A DNA stretch of 64,000 nucleotides from Ruminococcus sp. (GTDB taxonomy: Bacteria; Bacillota; Clostridia; Oscillospirales; Acutalibacteraceae): positions 1-64,000 of the forward strand of contig JAFSZY010000057.1 in NCBI GenBank assembly GCA_017458845.1. The letters are read 5' to 3'. Below are positions 9,688 through 38,817 of this stretch, piece by piece; within the stretch, counting starts at the first letter, position 1; each line of letters begins with the position of its first letter. A program made the position numbers and the translations under genes. The notes beneath the pieces are model-generated. The model worked only from the letters and a program-made list of their open reading frames with translations. It searched no databases and had not been told where the DNA came from.

Positions 9688-9764
9688 CCGGGTGTGGCGC
9701 AGTTTGGTAGCGCGCTTGAATGGGGTTCAAGAGGCCGCTGGTTCGACTCCAGTCACTCGGACCA
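9688..9764 (+). tRNA. tRNA-Pro (GGG)
   Basis: The 77-nt sequence folds as a full cloverleaf. The acceptor stem is CCGGGTG with CACTCGG, the D stem is GCGC/GCGC, the anticodon stem is CTTGA/TCAAG, and the T stem is GCTGG/CCAGT. The anticodon loop ATGGGGT gives anticodon GGG, which reads CCC. The CCA end is encoded. The 3' part from base 9718 is repeated exactly at 36298-36344, so this gene is the integration site of the island that follows, and it remains intact. Confidence 0.95.
9718..9764 (+). repeat. attL: 47-bp direct repeat within the 3' end of tRNA-Pro
   Basis: The 47 bp from GAATGGGG to GGACCA are identical to 36298-36344. The bases on both sides differ, so these are the exact repeat limits. 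Identity with the 3' half of a tRNA is the usual crossover site of tyrosine integrases. Confidence 0.93.
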
Positions 9765-12325: not shown

Positions 12326-12657
12326 AATATTGTGTCTCCTTTTAGTGTGATAGATTTATTGTTTTTATTAATGTCAATAGAAAAATTACTGGTTGTCTTT
12401 AATCCAACCTCTTTTAATAATTTTTTAGACAATATAACTTTATCATTAATATTAGCCTTGCTAATAAAGATAGTTTTATATTCAGGGTCAAAGTCTACAC
12501 ATACTTGTCTGTCATCAGGCGAAAGTTCCATCGCGTCCATCCATTTTTTAGGTAGCGCGAGCTTACAGCCTGTAGACACTCCGCCGTTTGCGTTACGAAC
12601 AATACTGAATATAACACTAATTACTCGTCTTTCGATAAAATACTTGATTACTGCCAT
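12322..12657 (-). CDS. AbrB/SpoVT-like DNA-binding protein
   Basis: 111 residues. The segment GGVSTGCKLALPKKWMDAM followed by DDRQVCVDFD matches the swapped-hairpin AbrB/MazE/SpoVT fold, preceded by about 25 less typical residues. A second beta/helix repeat follows (KVILSKKLLKEVGL). Proteins of this fold bind DNA as dimers and act as transition regulators or as antitoxins. It overlaps the integrase stop by one base (TAATG) and the YhaM-like start by four, so all three are translationally coupled. It may autoregulate the integrase operon. No partner toxin of the MazF type is seen. Confidence 0.7.
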   Translation of the reverse strand: MAVIKYFIERRVISVIFSIVRNANGGVSTGCKLALPKKWMDAMELSPDDRQVCVDFDPEYKTIFISKANINDKVILSKKLLKEVGLKTTSNFSIDINKNNKSITLKGDTIL

Positions 12658-13775
12658 TATTCCTTTACCTCGCTTGATTGTTTATTACAATTTAGTTTTG
12701 AGACAGCTTCTTCGAGAGTTGCCTGTGAAGTATGTAAATAACCGTCTGTTGTATCAACATTAGAATGACCTGCTAATCTTGAAATTGTTTCCATAGGTAC
12801 TCCATTAGCTTGGAGTCGAGTTATATATGTGTGGCGGCAACAATGCGGTGTTAAAACTCTAACTTCAGAAATTTTTTGCAAAGCTTTCTTGAATTTTTTT
12901 CTATACGTAGATACTGAACATAAAGGGTTTAAACTCGAGAGTGTCCATATAAACGGATTCGCTCCGTTTTCACGAATAAATATTGCATATTTCCTATAAT
13001 CTATAGGGATAGGAATAACTCTATTGCTTTTCTTGCTCTTAGGCGGACCAAGTTTTGCGGTTCCGTCCACTATCTTTATAGCTTTATTTACAATAATGTT
13101 TGAACCGTCGGCAGAAATATCTGATTTTTTTAAAGCGAGTAACTCTTGTACCCTTAGTCCTGAACCAAGTTGTAGCATTATACTGTTGCCTAATAAGTTG
13201 TCAGGAAGTTGATTTTGAAGTAATTCTATTTCGTCTTCTGTAAAAGCATCTTTTTTAAATAATGTATTTTCCGAAAGCTTTTTGAACCGCATTGAGTGTC
13301 TGGCAGGGTTTTTAATTATCATTCCATTGTCATCAGCATAATCACAAATTTGTATTAGCATAGCACGTATTTTTCTAATATAAGATGTTGAATAAATCAT
13401 AACTAGGTTTTGAATAAAACGGTTAATATGTATAGGTTTTATATCGTTAAGCAGCATATCTCCAAGACCATCCTTAATTTTCTTTAGAGTGTATTGATAA
13501 CCGCTATAGGTTGATTCTTCCACTTGACCTTTATAATCTCTATACCATATATCTGCAAATTCGCTTAGCGTAATACTACGGTTTAAATCAGGATTATTTT
13601 CATGTTCTATTTTTATTCTTCGCATTTCCTCAAGAACTTCTGCTTTTGTAGTACGAGTAACACTAATAATGTTTTTCTTTCCGTCATCTTTATAACCGAG
13701 CATGAATTTTGCTGTATAAGTATTATTCTTATTCTTTTGAATATGACCTTCACCATTTCCGCGTCTTGTGCCCAT
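12657..13775 (-). CDS. int: Tyrosine site-specific integrase of the island
   Basis: 372 residues with the usual three parts: an N-terminal arm-type DNA-binding domain (about 1-60), a core-binding SAM-like domain (65-165) and a C-terminal catalytic domain. All catalytic residues are visible: R208 in SGLRVQELLAL, a lysine near 249, H311 and R314 in HCCRHTY, H337 in AGHSNVDTT, and the nucleophile Y346 in DGYLH. Its length and motifs are those of Tn916/phage-type integrases. It lies near attL and is coupled to the excisionase gene by a TAATG overlap. It is the obvious enzyme for recombination between the 47-bp repeats. Confidence 0.93.
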   Translation of the reverse strand: MGTRRGNGEGHIQKNKNNTYTAKFMLGYKDDGKKNIISVTRTTKAEVLEEMRRIKIEHENNPDLNRSITLSEFADIWYRDYKGQVEESTYSGYQYTLKKIKDGLGDMLLNDIKPIHINRFIQNLVMIYSTSYIRKIRAMLIQICDYADDNGMIIKNPARHSMRFKKLSENTLFKKDAFTEDEIELLQNQLPDNLLGNSIMLQLGSGLRVQELLALKKSDISADGSNIIVNKAIKIVDGTAKLGPPKSKKSNRVIPIPIDYRKYAIFIRENGANPFIWTLSSLNPLCSVSTYRKKFKKALQKISEVRVLTPHCCRHTYITRLQANGVPMETISRLAGHSNVDTTDGYLHTSQATLEEAVSKLNCNKQSSEVKE

Positions 13776-14005
13776 TAAATCACCCCCTTTGCAAACGAAA
13801 GAGTGGTAGGAATGTAGGTTCTAGCCTCAACCCAACTCCAGAATGCATCTTCTGGGATTCTGATTGTCCCTCCAAACTTGCAAACCGGGAAGTCTTTACG
13901 ATGGGTTAATTCGTATGCCGCAGACTGACTGATTTTTAAAATATTTTTAATATCAGTTACGGTATAATAGTTTCTGCTCACTTCTTTTGCTTTGTTGTTA
14001 GTCAT
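13775..14005 (-). CDS. xis: Excisionase-like winged-helix protein
   Basis: 76 residues with the MerR/excisionase-type winged helix: YYTVTDIKNILKISQSAAYE, then FPVCKFGGTIRIPEDAFWSW. Such proteins bend DNA at att sites and favour excision over integration. It is the first gene of the operon, preceded by an AGGAGG-type site, and overlaps int by one base. A promoter, leader and intrinsic terminator lie upstream, so its expression may be conditional on read-through. Confidence 0.85.
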   Translation of the reverse strand: MTNNKAKEVSRNYYTVTDIKNILKISQSAAYELTHRKDFPVCKFGGTIRIPEDAFWSWVEARTYIPTTLSFAKGVI

Positions 14006-14293: not shown

Positions 14294-14328
14294 GTGGTGT
14301 TGCAAAAAAGACTTAAAAGGAGATAATA

Positions 14329-14523
14329 ATGACTTCACAATCTCAATTAAAAGCTTCCAAAAAACATATGAAAGAAAAATTGGATGATGTAAGATTTCGC
14401 GTGCCCAAAGGTCAGCGCGCCGTTATTCAAGAACATGCTAAAAAAATGGGCGAATCTACTAATGCGTTTATTAAACGAGCGGTAGCCGAGACAATGGAGC
14501 GCGACAACAGCAAATCAGATTAA
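14329..14523 (+). CDS. Ribbon-helix-helix (Arc/CopG-like) DNA-binding protein
   Basis: 64 residues. VRFRVPKGQRAVIQEHAKKM followed by GESTNAFIKRAVAETMER is the beta-strand/helix/helix pattern of Arc-type regulators. The start is preceded by AAAAGGAG with seven bases of spacing. It is the only + strand gene in this part of the island. It is transcribed away from the int promoter and ends in a strong terminator, so it may repress the divergent int leader promoter. That role is inferred from position. Confidence 0.8.
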   Translation: MTSQSQLKASKKHMKEKLDDVRFRVPKGQRAVIQEHAKKMGESTNAFIKRAVAETMERDNSKSD

Positions 14524-14531
14524 GTCTTCTT

Positions 14532-14565
14532 CCGAGGCAGTTTATCCTGCCTCGGAATTTTCATT
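14532..14565 (+). terminator. Terminator of the ribbon-helix-helix gene
   Basis: The perfect 9-bp stem CCGAGGCAG/CTGCCTCGG with a 6-nt loop is followed by AATTTTCATTTTTC. It overlaps the stop codon of the convergent recombinase gene. Confidence 0.87.
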
Positions 14566-16095
14566 TTTCTTTTCATATTTTCTATACATATTATGGTATG
14601 TTTTGATACTGTTTAAGGGCTCTGATTTATCACTATCATATTGCTCTACCATCGGATGACGTTGAACTTCTGATGGGATTTCACTGTCAGTTTCTATACG
14701 AATATGTATACTATCATTGGGAGTCTTAGCTTTAATTGAAATTACGATTTCACGTTTTCGTGAGCCTTTTGGAATACCGATTATTTGTCTATATAGGCTA
14801 TCAATTGTTCTTGAAGTTTGCGCTTCTAAAACAGATTCGTTGTTTTGGGGGTGTGTTGAAGAAAACAAGGTCCTTTCGTCAAGCTTTTTCTTCATTTTAT
14901 AAAGAAGATCCGGATTTGTAAAATTGTATCTATTCAGCTCCACAGAGGAAATACTGTGCCCCATTAAATATTGAATTTCGTTAAGGCTTAGTCCTAATAT
15001 TTCCAATATTGTTCCGAAATGTCGCCTAAACAAATAAGCGGTCGGCTCCTTTTCAATTAGTTTTTGTTTAAATACTTCATTATGCTTTTTTGTTAATTTA
15101 GAATGGTTAATTTCTATAAAAGCCACTACTCTGCTGTCAACATTGGCATATTTTAATACTACTTTTCCTGCTTGCGTTAGATCGTTTGTATTACAAGGTT
15201 TATGAAAGTCATCTTTTACACAAGCTATTGTTAATTTATTCACTTCTTCATCGCAAATATTTAATTTGCGTTTTACATATTCTTTTCTTTTAATTAAAAA
15301 ATCAAGTAGTTTATCACCATATATAGGAATAGATCGATATGCGTTTTCTGTTTTGGTAGTAGCTGTTATCTCTCTGCTGCGAGTCGCAGTTTTGCGAATT
15401 ATTAATCTGTAGCAATCTTCGTGTCCGGTCATTGGGAGAATATCTCCAAATTCAACACCACAGGCTTCTGAATTGCGTAGTCCGAATGCAAACATAAGCG
15501 CAATGCCCATAAATTCTCCGCTTTGTTCCGGATTCGTCATTACTTTTTCAAAAACTTTAGCTTCTTCTGGAGTGGTCAACGATTTTCTTAATGAAATATT
15601 TTCAGCAATGAGATTTTCAATAATTATATCATTTTTATCCTTGTTTTTAGGCGCATAGATATCATTATTCAATATGTCGTAATTAGCCAAAGATACCGCT
15701 GTTCCCCAAAACAAAGAAACACTTCTAATTCCTTTTACAACAGAAATTTTATCAATACTTTTTATATTACTCAGTAAGGTATCCATTTTATGTTCTGAAT
15801 AATACTTATTTTTCCCCTTTCTGGTATATCCAGAGATTTTTATTTTATTAAGGATTTCAATAATTTCTTTGTATGAATATTCAGCAAAAGGTTTATCTTC
15901 AAAGTACGGCGATAGAATATCTCGAAAATTACTTTTATATTGTTTAGCGGTTCGCTTTTCATCTTCTGTTCTAGCTTTTTTATCCCAGTGTTTTTCTAAG
16001 TCTTTTTTATATTTGTTATATATACCCCAAAGCGTAAGCTTTTCTCTGACGGTTTTCTTTGGAACTCTTTTTTTATTTTTTCTTTTTCTTTTCAA
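14542..16095 (-). CDS. Second tyrosine-recombinase-like protein with a C-terminal beta-rich extension
   Basis: About 517 residues. On the 519-residue numbering from the upstream ATG, R209 (FAFGLRNSEACG), R359 in box II, H382 (LMGHS) and Y392 (NRYNF) are in place. The box II histidine position is Tyr (YLFRRHFGT), a substitution that occurs in some active recombinases. A lysine-rich N-terminus and about 120 residues beyond the tyrosine are unusual; the extension includes a beta-rich stretch (REIVISIKAK, SIHIRIET). The ATG at 16101 is one base from AAGGAGG, so the TTG at 16095 is the better start. It follows the next recombinase-like gene within a few bases. Confidence 0.8.
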   Translation of the reverse strand: MKRKRKNKKRVPKKTVREKLTLWGIYNKYKKDLEKHWDKKARTEDEKRTAKQYKSNFRDILSPYFEDKPFAEYSYKEIIEILNKIKISGYTRKGKNKYYSEHKMDTLLSNIKSIDKISVVKGIRSVSLFWGTAVSLANYDILNNDIYAPKNKDKNDIIIENLIAENISLRKSLTTPEEAKVFEKVMTNPEQSGEFMGIALMFAFGLRNSEACGVEFGDILPMTGHEDCYRLIIRKTATRSREITATTKTENAYRSIPIYGDKLLDFLIKRKEYVKRKLNICDEEVNKLTIACVKDDFHKPCNTNDLTQAGKVVLKYANVDSRVVAFIEINHSKLTKKHNEVFKQKLIEKEPTAYLFRRHFGTILEILGLSLNEIQYLMGHSISSVELNRYNFTNPDLLYKMKKKLDERTLFSSTHPQNNESVLEAQTSRTIDSLYRQIIGIPKGSRKREIVISIKAKTPNDSIHIRIETDSEIPSEVQRHPMVEQYDSDKSEPLNSIKTYHNMYRKYEKKNENSEAG

Positions 16096-16107
16096 ATACA
16101 TGCCTCC

Positions 16108-17913
16108 TTATATTATACGAGATGAAATTGCACCATCAAAGCCATGTTCATTTTCAATGATAATTCTGGCGTTAGCGTCACTTCCTATATTCATAGTAAT
16201 AACATCTGAAGCTACCTTGCCAACACCTGCTTCAATGGTTATATTATGCAAACAAGATTTTTTAGCTTTATTATTCTCTTCATCATAGGCAATAATACCA
16301 GTCTCGAGCACGGAATCTACGGAATAAATTGCATCAACTATTAAATCCATTTTTTCGGCGAGTTTTTTCTGGACAAAATCGTTTGAATAATCGCAATAAT
16401 GTCCTGAATATGGATCAGGAGCGTTATTTCCAAGAATATATGCAATCTCACCGCTGGTGAGTTTACCCTGCTCCGTTGCATGATGTTGAAAATTAATTCT
16501 GAACAATTGCACTTTGTTTAAATCATTTAATTTTTTTGATTCCGGCATTAAAAATTTGTTTTCAACTTTTCTAAATCCATTTTCTTTTGCTTTTTTATTA
16601 TAATTTCTTAGTGTTTTCTGCGCTAACGGCAGCATAAACTCTTCGCCTTCTTTTAGATATTTATCACAGCTTCTAGAAACAATAGGATAATCTTTGGTTT
16701 CTTCAAAAATTCGCTCATCAAAGATTTTATGAAGTTTTTTATCAGGTATATTATTGAATTCTTGATAACTAATTGTATTAGTGTTTAGAGCTTTAAAAAG
16801 CATTTCTATAAGGTCGTTATATTTTTTGTTTTTCAAACGGCTTCTTATTGACTTTTTATACTGCTCTAATTTATAGTTTAGCAAATTGTTTCTCTGTATT
16901 TCTATAAGCTCGTCTATTATTCTTGGTAACGGCACTAATCTGTACGCTTGTTTTCTGTCTGCTTCAATTGGTTCCAGTTCGACCCCTTGGCCAGACATTT
17001 TTTTAGTTATTTCAAAATGATGTCGACCATTTGAATATTTGATTCCCTTATAATCGCACCACTGAAGTGCACACACTTCTGCTGGATAGAGCCCCGTAAA
17101 AAGTTCTATCAAAACACCTAAATAAGCATATTCGCCATTCTTAAATCTGTCGATAAGCCAATCTGTCAATTCTCTGAAGCTAAATAATGATAAGGACTTT
17201 TCAGCCAACGCTTTTCGACTTCTTCTGTATGCCCTTTTTTCTTGAGCGTTTATTAAGTTATCATTATTTTCAAGGTGAAGTACAATTTTGTTTTCTATTA
17301 TTTTATTTATATATGCGTGTCTCAATATATAATTCAATAAAAGTTCAATTCTATATATTGAAATACCCTTATGCTTAATTATATATTTTTCTATAGCGTA
17401 AGTAATATTATCTTCAACATCTTCGTTTAATATAATGTTTCGAAACAAATTATCTTTTACAATAGTCAAGAAATCGTCTTTGTTGAAACGGCTTTCTTTG
17501 CAAATATCATCGTAAAAAGCATATGAGAAAAGCAACAACGTCACATTATTGATTGTTTTATTTGCTAATGCTGACAACACTTCTTCTTTGACGATTTTTC
17601 GAAGATCCTCATACTTCCAAATTTCATCGAAAATGATTGCTTTTATTTTGGATGGATCGTTTGTCTTAACATCAATTGTTCTTTTGAAAAGTATTTTCCC
17701 ATATGGTTTTGGGGTTACTTTTTGGCTTTTGGTTTGTTTTTTTGTTTTTTGTTTCTTTTTGAATTTTGCAAATCTGATTTTAACAACGTTATATGTTGTT
17801 GTCTCGTTTTTGATATTATTATATTGTTGTTCTCTAACTGTCCATAAGATTAAAAAATCTTTTGACAAATAGTATTGATTCGGTCTGTTTCTTTTGTTGT
17901 TTGTGTCATTCAC
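16108..17913 (-). CDS. Degenerate tyrosine-recombinase-like protein, probably non-catalytic
   Basis: About 601 residues. The catalytic domain can be followed through LIELFTGLYPAEVCALQW, LVPLPRIIDELIEI and IAYILGNNAPDP. On the 604-residue numbering, the first arginine is Tyr (Y279), the box II H and R become Ile and Gln (I476, Q479), the next His becomes Asn (N499), and only a candidate Tyr (Y509) remains. It therefore probably cannot cut DNA and may act as a partner or DNA-binding subunit of the recombinase encoded just downstream. Its tail (SDVITMNIGSDANARIIIE) is beta-rich like that of the partner. A GTG at 17913 is better placed after AAAGGA than the TTG at 17922. Confidence 0.7.
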   Translation of the reverse strand: MNDTNNKRNRPNQYYLSKDFLILWTVREQQYNNIKNETTTYNVVKIRFAKFKKKQKTKKQTKSQKVTPKPYGKILFKRTIDVKTNDPSKIKAIIFDEIWKYEDLRKIVKEEVLSALANKTINNVTLLLFSYAFYDDICKESRFNKDDFLTIVKDNLFRNIILNEDVEDNITYAIEKYIIKHKGISIYRIELLLNYILRHAYINKIIENKIVLHLENNDNLINAQEKRAYRRSRKALAEKSLSLFSFRELTDWLIDRFKNGEYAYLGVLIELFTGLYPAEVCALQWCDYKGIKYSNGRHHFEITKKMSGQGVELEPIEADRKQAYRLVPLPRIIDELIEIQRNNLLNYKLEQYKKSIRSRLKNKKYNDLIEMLFKALNTNTISYQEFNNIPDKKLHKIFDERIFEETKDYPIVSRSCDKYLKEGEEFMLPLAQKTLRNYNKKAKENGFRKVENKFLMPESKKLNDLNKVQLFRINFQHHATEQGKLTSGEIAYILGNNAPDPYSGHYCDYSNDFVQKKLAEKMDLIVDAIYSVDSVLETGIIAYDEENNKAKKSCLHNITIEAGVGKVASDVITMNIGSDANARIIIENEHGFDGAISSRII

Positions 17914-17978
17914 AAGCCTCAATCCTTTCCTAACTTCTTAATACATTCGCAAATTATTTAGTTTTGATTATTTTATGT

Positions 17979-18006
17979 TTGATTTTTTAATAATATATGA
18001 TATAAT
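17979..18006 (+). promoter_or_regulatory. Promoter of the candidate ncRNA
   Basis: TTGATT at 17979-17984 and TATAAT at 18001-18006 are spaced by 16 bp, on the strand opposite to the neighbouring genes. Confidence 0.65.
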
Positions 18007-18011
18007 ATAAA

Positions 18012-18120
18012 AACCTTAATAGACGCACTTCGCCTATAGAAGTACGATATGATTTTCCGGCAAGAAAATTTTCTTTTAAGGTGTTATCACTCCGAGCGTC
18101 CACTCGGGGTGAATTTTTTT
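18012..18120 (+). ncRNA. Candidate structured small RNA, about 105 nt
   Basis: Between the degenerate recombinase and the XRE regulator, a + strand transcript with its own promoter and terminator is predicted. A closing stem ACCTTAA (18013-18019) with TTAAGGT (18076-18082) encloses two hairpins, ACTTC/GAAGT (18027-18043) and ATTTTC/GAAAAT (18052-18069). The terminator stem CACTCCGAG/CTCGGGGTG (18088-18111) and seven T follow. No open reading frame of interest is present. The fold is a three-way junction plus terminator. I do not recognise it as a known RNA family. It may regulate the divergently arranged recombinase or regulator genes. Confidence 0.6.
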
Positions 18121-18149
18121 ATAAAATAAGAATGGCCGTTCTTATTTTA
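18121..18149 (-). terminator. Terminator of the XRE regulator gene
   Basis: On the minus strand AAAATAAGAA pairs with TTCTTATTTT around CGGCCA, followed by ATAAAAAAATT. The stem overlaps the stop codon of the regulator gene. Confidence 0.6.
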
Positions 18150-18908
18150 ATAATTTTGGGGGAAATGATGTATTCCTAGATAATTGTCAATAAAAGTATG
18201 TCCATTGTAGCTGACATCAACATCCATACTTCTTATACGAACCGATTCAAAGAGCAGATCCAATGTAGATTCAGGCAAACTGCTTTTTTCTGCAATTTTA
18301 TAAGCTATTAAGTCCTCGGCGTCAAAAGATTTCAAAACTATTAGGTTTGCATTATTATCTTTAGATTCTATTAAATAAATTGTATGTTCGCCGTCTAAAG
18401 ATACCTTAAAATAATAATCGTTAAAACCAAGCTGGATGTCTCCAAATTGCTCCGTTTTGTAGCGGAGTTCCCATCCTTCAGAAGAAATATTAAAATCTTC
18501 ATGCATCTCAGGGTCATCAACAAATGTTTTATATGCGTTCGCTGATAATTCATTTTCTAAAAACTTATTGTAATTATGACACCAAAACAAATCTCCGTCT
18601 TGTGTATCTTTTATTAGTCTATCTACAAACAATTTGATTGTTTTCATTGACTTGTTTAAAGGCGCATAGTCTAAATCGCTATACATAAGATCCAGCAAAG
18701 GTATTTCTAATAGTTCAGCGATTTTATCAGCTTGCTCAATTGTAAAGCGTGAGGTTTTCTTCTGATTAACCCTGGATATAAACCCAATGCTTATGCCAGC
18801 CTCCTTTTCAAGCTCACCAATTGATGATATACACCCTTCTTTAGCAGCATTTTCATTTAGTATTATCTTGATATTATTGATAAATCGTTCAATATTATAT
18901 TGTAGCAT
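18147..18908 (-). CDS. XRE-family transcriptional regulator
   Basis: 253 residues. The N-terminal helix-turn-helix spans about residues 20-75 (SSIGELEKEAGISIGFISRV, ADKIAELLEIPLLDLM). The C-terminal 170 residues are an unassigned sensing or oligomerisation domain, with alternating aromatic strands such as IQLGFNDYYFKVSLDGEHTI. The start used here follows AAGGAGAGG with normal spacing; an upstream ATG would add ten residues but lacks a site. It has its own consensus promoter. It is probably the switch regulator of the island's recombinase region, as judged by position. Confidence 0.82.
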   Translation of the reverse strand: MLQYNIERFINNIKIILNENAAKEGCISSIGELEKEAGISIGFISRVNQKKTSRFTIEQADKIAELLEIPLLDLMYSDLDYAPLNKSMKTIKLFVDRLIKDTQDGDLFWCHNYNKFLENELSANAYKTFVDDPEMHEDFNISSEGWELRYKTEQFGDIQLGFNDYYFKVSLDGEHTIYLIESKDNNANLIVLKSFDAEDLIAYKIAEKSSLPESTLDLLFESVRIRSMDVDVSYNGHTFIDNYLGIHHFPQNY

Positions 18909-18937
18909 TAGTATTCCTCTCCTTTCCTCATGTAACA

Positions 18938-18966
18938 ATTATAACATGTATATTAAAAATATTCAA
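18938..18966 (-). promoter_or_regulatory. Promoter of the XRE regulator gene
   Basis: On the minus strand TTGAAT (18966-18961) and TATAAT (18943-18938) are spaced by 17 bp. Confidence 0.8.
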
Positions 18967-19216
18967 GAAGATATATAAAAAAATTAAATATTTTCAATTT
19001 GATTAATATTTTTCATATAAACCAAGGAATATATTCAAATATAATAGTTGTTTTATAGATTTTAAATTATTATTTTCAATACCTACATATTATAATTTTG
19101 CTAATTTGAATGTTTAATTCCGCTAAATTCATATAAATCTATCAAATCGAAGTGCTTATTATGGGACAATATTTTTGAAAAAAGCGGTATAAGCCCCCCA
19201 CTAAATAAACCCTAAA
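18967..19216. other. AT-rich intergenic stretch without a gene
   Basis: This very AT-rich spacer separates the recombinase/regulator module from the surface-protein cargo. I see no ribosome site followed by a convincing frame and no strong hairpin inside it. Confidence 0.6.
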
Positions 19217-19271
19217 TAAAAAAACTAAACGCAACATTTTAAACGTTTATAGTAAAAATAGTTGCGTTTAG
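19217..19271 (-). terminator. Strong terminator downstream of the surface-protein operon
   Basis: CTAAACGCAAC pairs perfectly with GTTGCGTTTAG, and the stem extends by about five more pairs after a bulge. On the minus strand it is followed by TTTTTTTATTT. It backs up the hairpin at 19356-19394. Confidence 0.85.
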
Positions 19272-19344
19272 AATTAAAATAAGGTACGAATTCAGTCACG
19301 TACTCAGCTGGTTTCACTTGTGCGTTGATTTATTTCACTATTCA

Positions 19345-19394
19345 ACACAAAAGCAGTCACCGCCACCACTCTATAATTGAGCGGCGGCGGTGAC
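19345..19394 (-). terminator. GC-rich terminator after the 54-residue gene of the island
   Basis: A 16-bp stem at 19356-19371 and 19379-19394, rich in GCC/GGC and with two G-T pairs, has a 7-nt loop. It is followed on the minus strand by TGCTTTTGTG. It lies 28 bp after the last stop codon of the operon. Confidence 0.8.
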
Positions 19395-19422
19395 CGTAGA
19401 TTAGAGTTATCGTTTACTTATG

Positions 19423-32329: not shown

Positions 32330-32362
32330 AAAAAAGGCGCATAGCCGAAGCTATACGCCGAA
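32330..32362 (-). terminator. Minus-strand terminator
   Basis: A 10-bp stem with one mismatch (GGCGTATAGC with GCTATGCGCC, TTCG loop) is followed on the minus strand by TTTTTTGT. The transcript it ends would include the nested inverted repeat at 32382-32510, since no minus-strand gene lies just upstream. Confidence 0.75.
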
Positions 32363-32381
32363 AAACGCTGACTCCGATTGC

Positions 32382-32510
32382 GCCACACAACTTGATACAC
32401 TATAAGTCAAAGTATACCAAAAAGGAGTATGCGTTTTTTCCGAATATGGAAACACGAATACTATGACTTATAGCGAATTACTTTTCACTTTCTATATCAA
32501 ATTGTGTGGC
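32382..32510. repeat. Nested inverted-repeat element, about 130 bp
   Basis: The ends GCCACACAACTTGATA and TATCAAATTGTGTGGC are inverted copies (15 of 16 match). Inside them, CTATAAGTCAAAGTAT and ATACTATGACTTATAG are a second inverted pair (15 of 16). The rest of the centre is unique. It contains no gene. It may be a miniature inverted-repeat element, a transposon remnant, or the DNA of a structured RNA that ends at the 32334 terminator. Confidence 0.6.
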
Positions 32511-32570
32511 ACTAATAGTTTACCACAGACCAGCGGATTATTCAATGAAATTATTTCCATTTTATTTTGA

Positions 32571-32795
32571 TTGTTCAATAAAACATCAGTAAATGATGCA
32601 ATAGTTGGAGCAATGTGGATTTGTGGACGTAGTGAAGATATATGGATAATATTAAAAACGATAAATACTATCTTAAATCATTACCGAAATGTGCATAAAT
32701 ACGACAACGTAGATATGAGCGTGATTTATAATACCGTTATGTTTGACTTGCCCGAGCAGCTGCGTGATATTGAGGAGTTCTATGAAAAAAAATAA
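32571..32795 (+). CDS. Possible small protein or C-terminal gene remnant
   Basis: An open frame of up to 74 codons starts at TTG (32571); the first ATG is 14 codons later. Neither has a convincing ribosome site. The product (MWICGRSEDIWIILKTINTI, ending LPEQLRDIEEFYEKK) looks like a plausible soluble helical domain, and the frame is followed 20 bp later by a terminator. This pattern suits the surviving 3' end of a larger gene cut by the inverted-repeat element. Family not recognised. Confidence 0.4.
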   Translation: MFNKTSVNDAIVGAMWICGRSEDIWIILKTINTILNHYRNVHKYDNVDMSVIYNTVMFDLPEQLRDIEEFYEKK

Positions 32796-32811
32796 ACGTT
32801 ATAATAAGAGA

Positions 32812-32842
32812 AAAACGAGCAGCCTTTTGGTTGCTCGTTCTT
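32812..32842. terminator. Bidirectional terminator
   Basis: ACGAGCAGCC pairs with GGTTGCTCGT around TTTT. T-rich sequence follows on both strands, so it ends the FRG-domain gene on the minus strand and the small frame on the plus strand. Confidence 0.82.
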
Positions 32843-32866
32843 CTTGTACTTTGTTTTTTGAATTCG

Positions 32867-36297: not shown

Positions 36298-36344
36298 GAA
36301 TGGGGTTCAAGAGGCCGCTGGTTCGACTCCAGTCACTCGGACCA
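36298..36344 (+). repeat. attR: 47-bp copy of the tRNA-Pro 3' end
   Basis: Identical over 47 bp to 9718-9764, without the 5' half of the tRNA. It marks the right end of the island and is followed by a terminator that would have served the tRNA before integration. Confidence 0.93.
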
Positions 36345-36776: not shown

Positions 36777-37445
36777 ATGAAATCACATAATTATTGGAAG
36801 TTAAAACTTATTCTTACAGGATTTACAAAATATATTTTGTGGGCGTTAGGTCTATCGCTTTTATTACTCCTTCCTATTGTTCCGATTCAATTAAACACTA
36901 TATCAACAATTATCAGTATTTTTTCTGTTGTGCTTGCTTTTTTATGGAGTATGTTTGATAAACGCTGGTGGAAAATTAAGAGAATAAATAAGCATTTGCC
37001 AGATAAGTTTTCTACTCCTATTATTGAAGGGCGCTGGGAAGGTATACTTACACGAGGCAAGGATAAACGTCCTTTCGTATTAGAAATAACTCAAACATTT
37101 ACGAGCGTTTCTTGTCAAACTTTTTCTCCTACAAGCTTTTCAAATAGTATAAATGCAGAATTATTATTTGATGAAGAAACAAAATCTCATCAATTAGCTT
37201 ATTTATGGATCGGAAACACTTCAAACACAACAGATGGTTCGTCATCCACAAATAAGTTTTATGGGTATACATTATTAAATATAAATGCTGCTCAGAATAG
37301 ATTAAGAGGCAATTATTTTACCGACAGGCAACCAAACCAAACACGTGGAGCATTAGACCTATCTTTTGTACAAAAAGATAAAGTGAATTCTTTTGAAAAC
37401 AATGAACCAGAAAGTTCCTTTGAAGAAAAAGACAAAAATAACTAA
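36777..37445 (+). CDS. Cap15-like 2TM beta-barrel effector protein
   Basis: 222 residues. Two membrane helices (about 18-36 and 40-60) separated by a short turn are followed by a basic stretch (KRWWKIKRINKHLP) and a beta-rich domain from about residue 82. The pattern EGRWEGILT, then FVLEITQTFTSVSCQTFSPT, AELLFDE, HQLAYLWIG, YGYTLLNI and LRGNYFTDR is that of the SMODS-associated 2TM beta-strand-rich family (Cap15 of CBASS, OptE-like proteins). Known members bind a cyclic nucleotide in the barrel, and their activation or release damages the membrane. No cyclic-nucleotide synthase is encoded nearby. The gene has its own promoter and AGAGG site. The family call rests on pattern only. Confidence 0.7.
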   Translation: MKSHNYWKLKLILTGFTKYILWALGLSLLLLLPIVPIQLNTISTIISIFSVVLAFLWSMFDKRWWKIKRINKHLPDKFSTPIIEGRWEGILTRGKDKRPFVLEITQTFTSVSCQTFSPTSFSNSINAELLFDEETKSHQLAYLWIGNTSNTTDGSSSTNKFYGYTLLNINAAQNRLRGNYFTDRQPNQTRGALDLSFVQKDKVNSFENNEPESSFEEKDKNN

Positions 37446-37476
37446 AAAAATCATTTTATCTATCATATAATTTGAG

Positions 37477-38124
37477 GTGATTAATATTAAAGAAAAAATT
37501 GAAGGACTTAGGGAGTTGTCTGGTGAATTGATTGGACTGCTAAATGGTGAAAAAACAAAAATTAATGTTTTCTTTACTGTTACTGAACCACTTAATAGTT
37601 TTTGTCACAAAATAAATAATGAAGCAAATAAGTGTGTTTCTGGTTTTTGGAATTTTGGAAATAATTCAGTCTATTTTCCCCACATCTCATTATTTATGGG
37701 GTTTGTTGACTCTGAAGAACAGCTCTTAAATGTGTTTAAAACAGTTTCGGATTTTTCAAAAACCATTGCACCATTTAAAATTGATCCAATGGCATTGTAC
37801 TTTAAATCAGTATCTGAAAAATCATCTAAGTATTTGTTTTTAGATTTTCTACAGAATGATTACATGTATGAAATCAAGAATACATTAGATGAATTATTAC
37901 AAAAAGATGTATTTCCTATTGGCTGGGATATAAAATCTGAACGCACACATATATCACTTGGTTGTTTTAAACATTTAAACACAAAAATTAATAATCTAGT
38001 TGAATCTTATAGACAGTTCCCCTCATGTGAAATAAATCAAATAGGAATATCTTTTATGGGTAAACATGGTGTGTTGATAGGAACAATTAAAACATATAAT
38101 TTGGAAAAATCCAAAACTTTATAA
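37477..38124 (+). CDS. 2H phosphoesterase (2'-5' RNA ligase-like) protein
   Basis: 215 residues. Two H-x-S motifs, FPHISLFMG (H69, S71) and RTHISLG (H158, S160), about 89 residues apart define the 2H fold, whose members open 2',3'- or 3',5'-cyclic phosphates or cut 2'-5' linkages. The phage anti-CBASS enzyme Acb1 belongs to the same broad fold. The gene lies 31 bp after the Cap15-like gene in the same direction and shares its terminator. The GTG at 37477 lies within the AGGTGAT site; an ATT at 37486 is an alternative start. Degrading the signal sensed by the membrane protein is a plausible role but is an inference. Confidence 0.75.
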   Translation: MINIKEKIEGLRELSGELIGLLNGEKTKINVFFTVTEPLNSFCHKINNEANKCVSGFWNFGNNSVYFPHISLFMGFVDSEEQLLNVFKTVSDFSKTIAPFKIDPMALYFKSVSEKSSKYLFLDFLQNDYMYEIKNTLDELLQKDVFPIGWDIKSERTHISLGCFKHLNTKINNLVESYRQFPSCEINQIGISFMGKHGVLIGTIKTYNLEKSKTL

Positions 38125-38177
38125 AACTTGCAACAGGTTTTTTATATACTTTTGTAAATTGGGATCATATATAATAA

Positions 38178-38212
38178 ACTTCCCTATGGCAGCCAAGCCA
38201 TAGGGAGTATTC
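38178..38212. terminator. Terminator between the 2H gene and fic
   Basis: The perfect stem TCCCTATGGC/GCCATAGGGA with a 6-nt loop lies between two convergent genes. The tails are only moderately T-rich on each strand. Confidence 0.7.
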
Positions 38213-38817
38213 TATATTTCTTCAGTTTTAAATGTTGTATAGCCTTCGTAATAGTAGCTGTGGTCAATGCCTTTCATGTAAATCTCTCGGTCATCAATCT
38301 TATCTGTAAGAGCGTTTTGGAGAAGCACCTTAATTTCGATATCTTTTATAGGGCTTCGTTCCATAGCGAGAAGATAATCATCCTTATCCACCTTGCTCCA
38401 ATCCACAACCTTTTTGAGTTCGTGTTTCAAAATAAGGTCAAGCCAGATTCGTGTGGCTCTGCCGTTACCTTCTCTGAATGGGTGGGCAATGTTCATCTCA
38501 ACATATTTCTCAATTATCTCATCATAGGTAGATTGCGGCATTTTCTCAACGTTATCTAACGCAGCTTTCAAATACATAACCGGTGCAAATCTAAAATTGC
38601 TCTTAGCAAGATTTACGGTGCGTATTTTACCTGCAAAGTCGTAAATATCATCAAATAAATAGCGATGAATAAAACTCAGAGCTTTAAAAGAACCTGCTTT
38701 TAACTTGTCAAGCATACCGCTTTCAAATAATTCAGCAGCTTTTTTCTTGCTTATACGTTCTTCTTCACGAGCTAAATCTGCTGAGTTTTCAATATTAAGC
38801 TTATTCTTTAGTGCCAC
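38212..38817 (-). CDS. fic: Fic-family AMP-transferase, class III (C-terminal inhibitory motif)
   Basis: 201 residues. The full catalytic motif [12 protein letters not shown] (H112 to R123) is intact. Fic enzymes with this motif transfer AMP from ATP to a hydroxyl on a target protein. The C-terminus contains SYYYEG (S187, E191, G192), which fits the (S/T)-x3-E-(G/N) inhibitory helix of class III Fic proteins such as the Neisseria enzyme, so it should be self-inhibited and need no separate antitoxin. None is encoded beside it. It starts at GTG and has its own promoter. Characterised relatives modify DNA gyrase and topoisomerase IV; the target here is not known. Confidence 0.88.

Follow-up and report, generated by a model that had tools for sequence, protein, structure and literature searches.

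A candidate antisense small RNA between an XRE regulator gene and a pair of tyrosine recombinase-like genes in an integrative island of Ruminococcus sp.

The DNA under study is a stretch of 64,000 nucleotides from Ruminococcus sp. (hereafter the window). The features needed to follow the argument are these.

9718 to 9764, + strand: attL, the 3' part of tRNA-Pro(GGG) and left end of the island, a perfect 47-bp repeat
14542 to 16101, - strand: second recombinase gene of the pair, for a 519-aa tyrosine recombinase that retains the catalytic R, R, H and Y
16108 to 17922, - strand: tyrosine-recombinase-like protein of 604 aa or less, without both catalytic arginines, probable antisense target
17979 to 18006, + strand: promoter of the small RNA, with -35 TTGATT, a 16-bp spacer, -10 TATAAT and the extended -10 TATGATATAAT
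18013 to 18120, + strand: predicted small RNA of about 107 nt, from the promoter and terminator positions and the fold
18013 to 18082, + strand: body of the RNA, a three-way junction in which the closing stem ACCTTAA/TTAAGGT encloses two inner hairpins (z -2.7 when the terminator is left out)
18087 to 18120, + strand: intrinsic terminator with a 10-bp stem, a loop of 6 and a T7 tract
18147 to 18908, - strand: XRE-type regulator with start codon ATG at 18908, probably the upstream gene of the sense transcription unit
18938 to 18966, - strand: promoter of the XRE gene, TTGAAT-17-TATAAT with TG, top scorer of the module
36298 to 36344, + strand: attR, right end of the island, where the 3' part of tRNA-Pro recurs as a perfect 47-bp copy

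As delimited by the two att copies, the host of the candidate RNA is a 26.6-kb integrative island in tRNA-Pro. Its G+C content is 38%, compared with 46% outside, and it has its own integrase and excisionase at 12657-14005. The small RNA, the XRE gene and the two recombinase-like genes share a stretch with only 31% G+C (14530-19300). The cargo of the island includes BspA-type leucine-rich-repeat proteins, an FRG-domain protein and AbiEi/AbiEii. An unannotated segment at 32360-32860 has strong outward-facing terminators on both strands and, on the + strand, a short remnant of a reading frame that ends ahead of the + terminator; it resembles a decayed gene. Just past the right att, positions 36777-38817 hold a Cap15-like two-transmembrane cyclic-nucleotide receptor (CBASS-type effector model) beside an unassigned gene of 215 aa, and next comes a Fic-domain protein that matches the candidate defence family PDC-S04.

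Both arginines are missing from the longer recombinase-like protein (GLYPAE; FQHHAT), which keeps the HYxxY tail, and its reading frame may start at the ATG at 17909, which has a better ribosome site. Distant recombinase pairs were found in Aristaeella and in Oscillospiraceae, including Intestinimonas. The gene had been labelled a degenerate recombinase in an earlier note on this DNA; the distant Aristaeella lactis partner (1031 aa) also lacks the catalytic arginines, so that the degenerate state looks like a property of the type and not like recent decay. That the same partner lacks them in so distant a pair suggests that the two proteins divide the labour in a stable way and that neither is decaying. 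As for the XRE regulator, whose C-terminal part is unassigned, its relatives in these searches were limited to hypothetical proteins encoded by Ca. Heliusvirales gut phages and one protein from a phage-like region in a genome of the same family; in two of these phages the gene lies upstream of ssDNA-binding and replication genes.

The promoter of the small RNA, TTGATT-16-TATAAT, has 10 matches out of 12, and its -10 region is the complete Gram-positive extended form, fitting TRTGNTATAAT. On its two strands together the 64-kb window contains five matches to this pattern, where dinucleotide shuffles give 0.4 expected matches, and it appears in 0.1% of the shuffles of the spacer between the XRE and recombinase genes; another of the five matches stands just 5' of tRNA-Pro. 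Promoters on both strands of 14300-19400 were ranked with a simple sigma-A weight matrix, entered from general knowledge, which placed this one second, behind the promoter of the XRE gene. The RNA is expected to start at about 18013, 7 nt past the -10 box and on the first base of the closing stem, and to end at about 18120, in the T tract. The terminator stem contains six G-C pairs and is followed by ATTTTTTTAT; only about seven strong + strand terminators, this one included, are present in the 64 kb. Upstream there is no + strand gene that it could serve, so it needs a + strand transcript of its own. Given the promoter, the terminator and nothing else on the + strand that explains the latter, an independent RNA of about 107 nt is likely, and we regard its reality as quite probable. 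Its synthesis is proposed to be constitutive, from its own extended -10 promoter. A small peptide product was rejected: the sole ATG frame, of 26 codons (18049-18129), reaches its stop codon (18127-18129) only past the terminator. The earlier note had described a promoter with 16-bp spacing, a strong terminator, the absence of a coding frame (essentially right), flanking genes on the other strand (both are on the - strand) and, from these, an independent + strand RNA in a mobile element; all of this holds up, and the last point is well supported by the RNA having its own promoter and terminator.

The fold deserves more caution. The minimum free energy structure does contain the closing stem and the two internal hairpins proposed before, arranged as a three-way junction followed by the terminator, with pair probabilities of about 0.8-1.0. 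Much of the excess stability of the segment is supplied by the terminator, however: the whole segment reaches z = -3.7 to -4.5 and the terminator alone z = -5.1, whereas the z of -2.7 for the junction body is attained by 4.1% of the 75-nt windows of the contig and 4.6% of those inside the island. The structure is therefore little evidence for a specialised fold. Of the earlier idea of a structured RNA with an unrecognised fold, the stem-loops stand, but nothing beyond ordinary stem-loops does, considering this z value, the lack of an Rfam match and the lack of homologues in the searches described below. The stability of the reverse complement equals or exceeds that of the + strand (-19.7 kcal/mol with z -3.7, versus -17.2 kcal/mol), so that folding cannot pick the strand and it is the promoter and terminator that do so. 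This slightly better fold, together with a closing stem that is followed on the - strand by GGUUUUUAUAUU, a weak terminator-like tail, would suit a cis-regulatory leader of the recombinase mRNA, to which the + strand signals would be secondary. We consider such a leader highly unlikely, as it is the + strand that has both the promoter and the canonical strong terminator, and Rfam yielded no matching leader family. Three other ideas were discarded. An orphan riboswitch governing antisense read-through into XRE would be expected to have an antiterminator, and neither this nor an Rfam match was seen; the arms of an integron attC-like folded site have the consensus RYYYAAC/GTTRRRY, which the stems here do not fit; and an operator common to the XRE and small RNA promoters is not distinctive, because TTTGATT occurs six times on the + strand in 5 kb.

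Searches for relatives were carried out by several routes. Rfam gave no match at the gathering score, the antisense-control RNA families described there included, and up to E of 10 only microRNA, snoRNA and other chance matches appeared, with no antisense-control family among them. DNA homologues were restricted to the genome itself, 300 genomes of the family yielding only short chance matches. Covariance models were built from the single sequence, with and without the terminator. The model with the terminator found one extra, weak match in 398 family genomes, the terminator after rplT; the model of the body only, run on 300 family and 60 genus genomes, had other matches, likewise weak, only inside reading frames. 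Hence the covariance search with the three-way-junction fold, which the earlier note had put forward as a check, recovers this locus only among about 400 family and 60 genus genomes. A model from one sequence reaches fairly close relatives only, and it is only at that range that the absence is meaningful. With blastn, plasmids gave one AT-rich match, to a Borreliella record over the AT-rich promoter side, and phages gave none to the locus. Exact hairpin patterns were absent from viral contigs, apart from one 18-mer without the fold. Moreover, the distant relatives of the 604-aa and 519-aa recombinases and of the XRE protein that were located through the neighbouring genes all lack the small RNA. 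Thus, neither DNA, nor the structure model, nor the neighbouring proteins lead to a homologue, and nothing points to conservation or covariation: as a three-way-junction family the RNA has no second member, and so no compensatory base changes, in the genomes, plasmids and phages searched.

This lack of conservation, the merely mild unusualness of the junction and the many promoter-like sites that AT-rich DNA yields are what would be expected if no functional RNA existed here, that is, if a chance promoter-like site stood before a barrier terminator that guards the 3' end of the XRE gene and insulates convergent transcription, the stems being incidental. We think that this is unlikely, as the complete extended -10 is rare among the shuffles, it is correctly spaced before a strong terminator, and that terminator is not needed by any upstream + strand gene.

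The small RNA lies wholly within the 224-bp spacer (17923-18146) that separates the XRE gene from the tandem recombinase pair, and it is antisense to both. It is fully complementary to the - strand of the spacer, its complement lying 91-198 nt before the recombinase start codon. The earlier note was right in placing the flanking genes on the opposite strand, but missed that the RNA is fully antisense to the spacer of a possible XRE-recombinase unit. The spacer scan found no strong - strand terminator between the XRE and recombinase genes, and the best - strand promoter in 17920-18250 ranks only 131st in the module by the sigma-A matrix, compared with first for the XRE promoter; a better - strand candidate is located at about 18300, inside the XRE gene. 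In the absence of a credible - strand promoter or intrinsic terminator in the spacer, transcription of the recombinase genes would most simply begin at the XRE promoter, or else within the XRE gene, and a recombinase mRNA made from the XRE promoter would contain the exact complement of the small RNA. The mRNA-sense spacer is predicted to fold into mirror-image hairpins of those in the RNA. This antisense position would provide an obvious cis target and would make the molecule an RNA of a familiar type.

The best mechanism that we can propose, tentatively and with a confidence that stays somewhat short of even, is a cis-antisense brake on recombinase expression in which the XRE protein is the transcriptional partner. 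The recombinase mRNA, initiated at the XRE promoter or within that gene, would cross the spacer, and the small RNA, acting mainly as a cis-encoded antisense RNA (countertranscript), would pair with it through the complementary hairpin loops. Pairing would lead to cleavage of the mRNA by RNase III, or would make its downstream part less stable or less translated, and recombinase production would be held low. The strong opposing promoter of the small RNA may add transcriptional interference by polymerase collision, while the XRE protein would form the transcriptional half of a two-part control. Positions, signals and full strand complementarity are read directly from the DNA; from them we infer the synthesis of both RNAs, their pairing and its outcome.

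Several observations restrain this proposal. The ribosome site of the recombinase gene is left uncovered, as the paired stretch stops 91 nt short of the start codon, and an attenuator hairpin is lacking behind it: the leader is AU-rich and has no G-C hairpin with a T tract past 18013 on the - strand. Therefore, neither a start-site block nor attenuation of the pIP501 type fits directly, and the routes left, we infer, are duplex cleavage by RNase III, a change in mRNA stability or polymerase collision. An AU-rich hairpin right after the XRE stop codon also speaks against the brake, and in the Aristaeella pair the upstream spacer has no antisense terminator, only one in the same direction. Instead of cotranscription across 224 bp, it is possible that the promoter within the XRE gene (about 18300), or one that was not recognised, drives the recombinase genes, and the recombinase may be other than the functional target of the RNA.

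Other ways of action were weighed against the antisense brake. A trans-acting regulatory RNA, whose loops or single-stranded joints pair imperfectly with island or host mRNAs, would typically have its own promoter, its own terminator and compact hairpins, as here, and mobile elements do carry such RNAs, RteR of CTnDOT being an example named in the literature. However, when the body was paired with 17 translation starts belonging to the island and its ends, the energies were no better than those of shuffled sequences (z -1.4 to +1.8), and the lack of homologues prevents finding a conserved seed. We judge a role in trans to be rather unlikely, if still worth keeping in mind.

The neighbouring genes bring to mind Salmonella Genomic Island 1 (SGI1), where transfer requires sgm-sRNA. 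This RNA arises by processing from the 3' end of a primary transcript several hundred nt long, and its gene neighbours an operon of two genes for tyrosine-recombinase-like mobilization proteins (PMC9299015). By analogy with this precedent, the RNA could bind proteins of, or be a co-factor for, the recombinase module: here too an island RNA adjoins two tyrosine-recombinase-like genes, one of them without catalytic residues, in an island without recognised conjugation genes. The likeness is one of layout, and sgm-sRNA is enterobacterial and has no short transcription unit of its own, while the RNA described here is predicted to be a short primary transcript and, judging from the sequence, has its own terminator and, 7 nt ahead of the first stem, its own promoter. 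Since it is also missing beside the distant relatives of the recombinase pair, a co-factor role seems decidedly unlikely. A still bolder version, a new co-factor or control RNA specific to islands with an active and a dead tyrosine recombinase, needed for or gating recombination and the first in Clostridia, strikes us as very improbable.

For the antisense brake, the nearest parallels come from plasmids and transposons. RNA-OUT of IS10/Tn10 is an antisense RNA that restrains the transposase by covering its start site. It resembles the present proposal in curbing the DNA-rearranging enzyme of a mobile element, but the start site is uncovered in our case. Like the countertranscribed RNAs of plasmids, the RNA stands opposite the leader or spacer of the gene that it would control, with full complementarity, and is short and structured with its own promoter and intrinsic terminator, as far as the sequence tells; those RNAs govern a replication initiator, whereas the genes downstream here are tyrosine-recombinase-like. 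RNAII of pMV158, 48 nt long, runs against the direction of copG and repB and overlaps the region between these two genes (PMC4485353). It is, similarly, a short antisense RNA with its own promoter and terminator in the spacer between a repressor and its target, opposite to both, but it consists of one hairpin directly upstream of the repB start signals, in contrast to a branched RNA of about 107 nt that lies 91 nt before the start of recombinases rather than of a replication initiator. The repressor CopR of pIP501 works alongside antisense RNAIII, which is 136 nt long and lies in a leader of 329 bp (PMC4981023). This layout is close, with an antisense RNA of similar length in a long leader plus a DNA-binding repressor; however, RNAIII works by transcription attenuation in the leader, for which no hairpin is visible here, it controls replication and not recombination, and no sequence relation was found.

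Overall, the original observation was mostly right and its interpretation half right, and we think that the RNA is plausibly a fresh candidate of the conventional antisense type. Its importance is modest because it has no homologue, is still a candidate and is best explained in a conventional way; the evidence is one uncorroborated locus, and its value lies in a cheap and specific test. Beyond Bacteroides and enterobacteria, few control RNAs of islands have been described, to our knowledge. Should the RNA be produced and restrain the recombinases, an antisense circuit in the style of copy control, composed of a regulator, an antisense RNA and a DNA-acting enzyme, would be applied to recombination, and the setting would be an island in a gut-type Clostridia genome.
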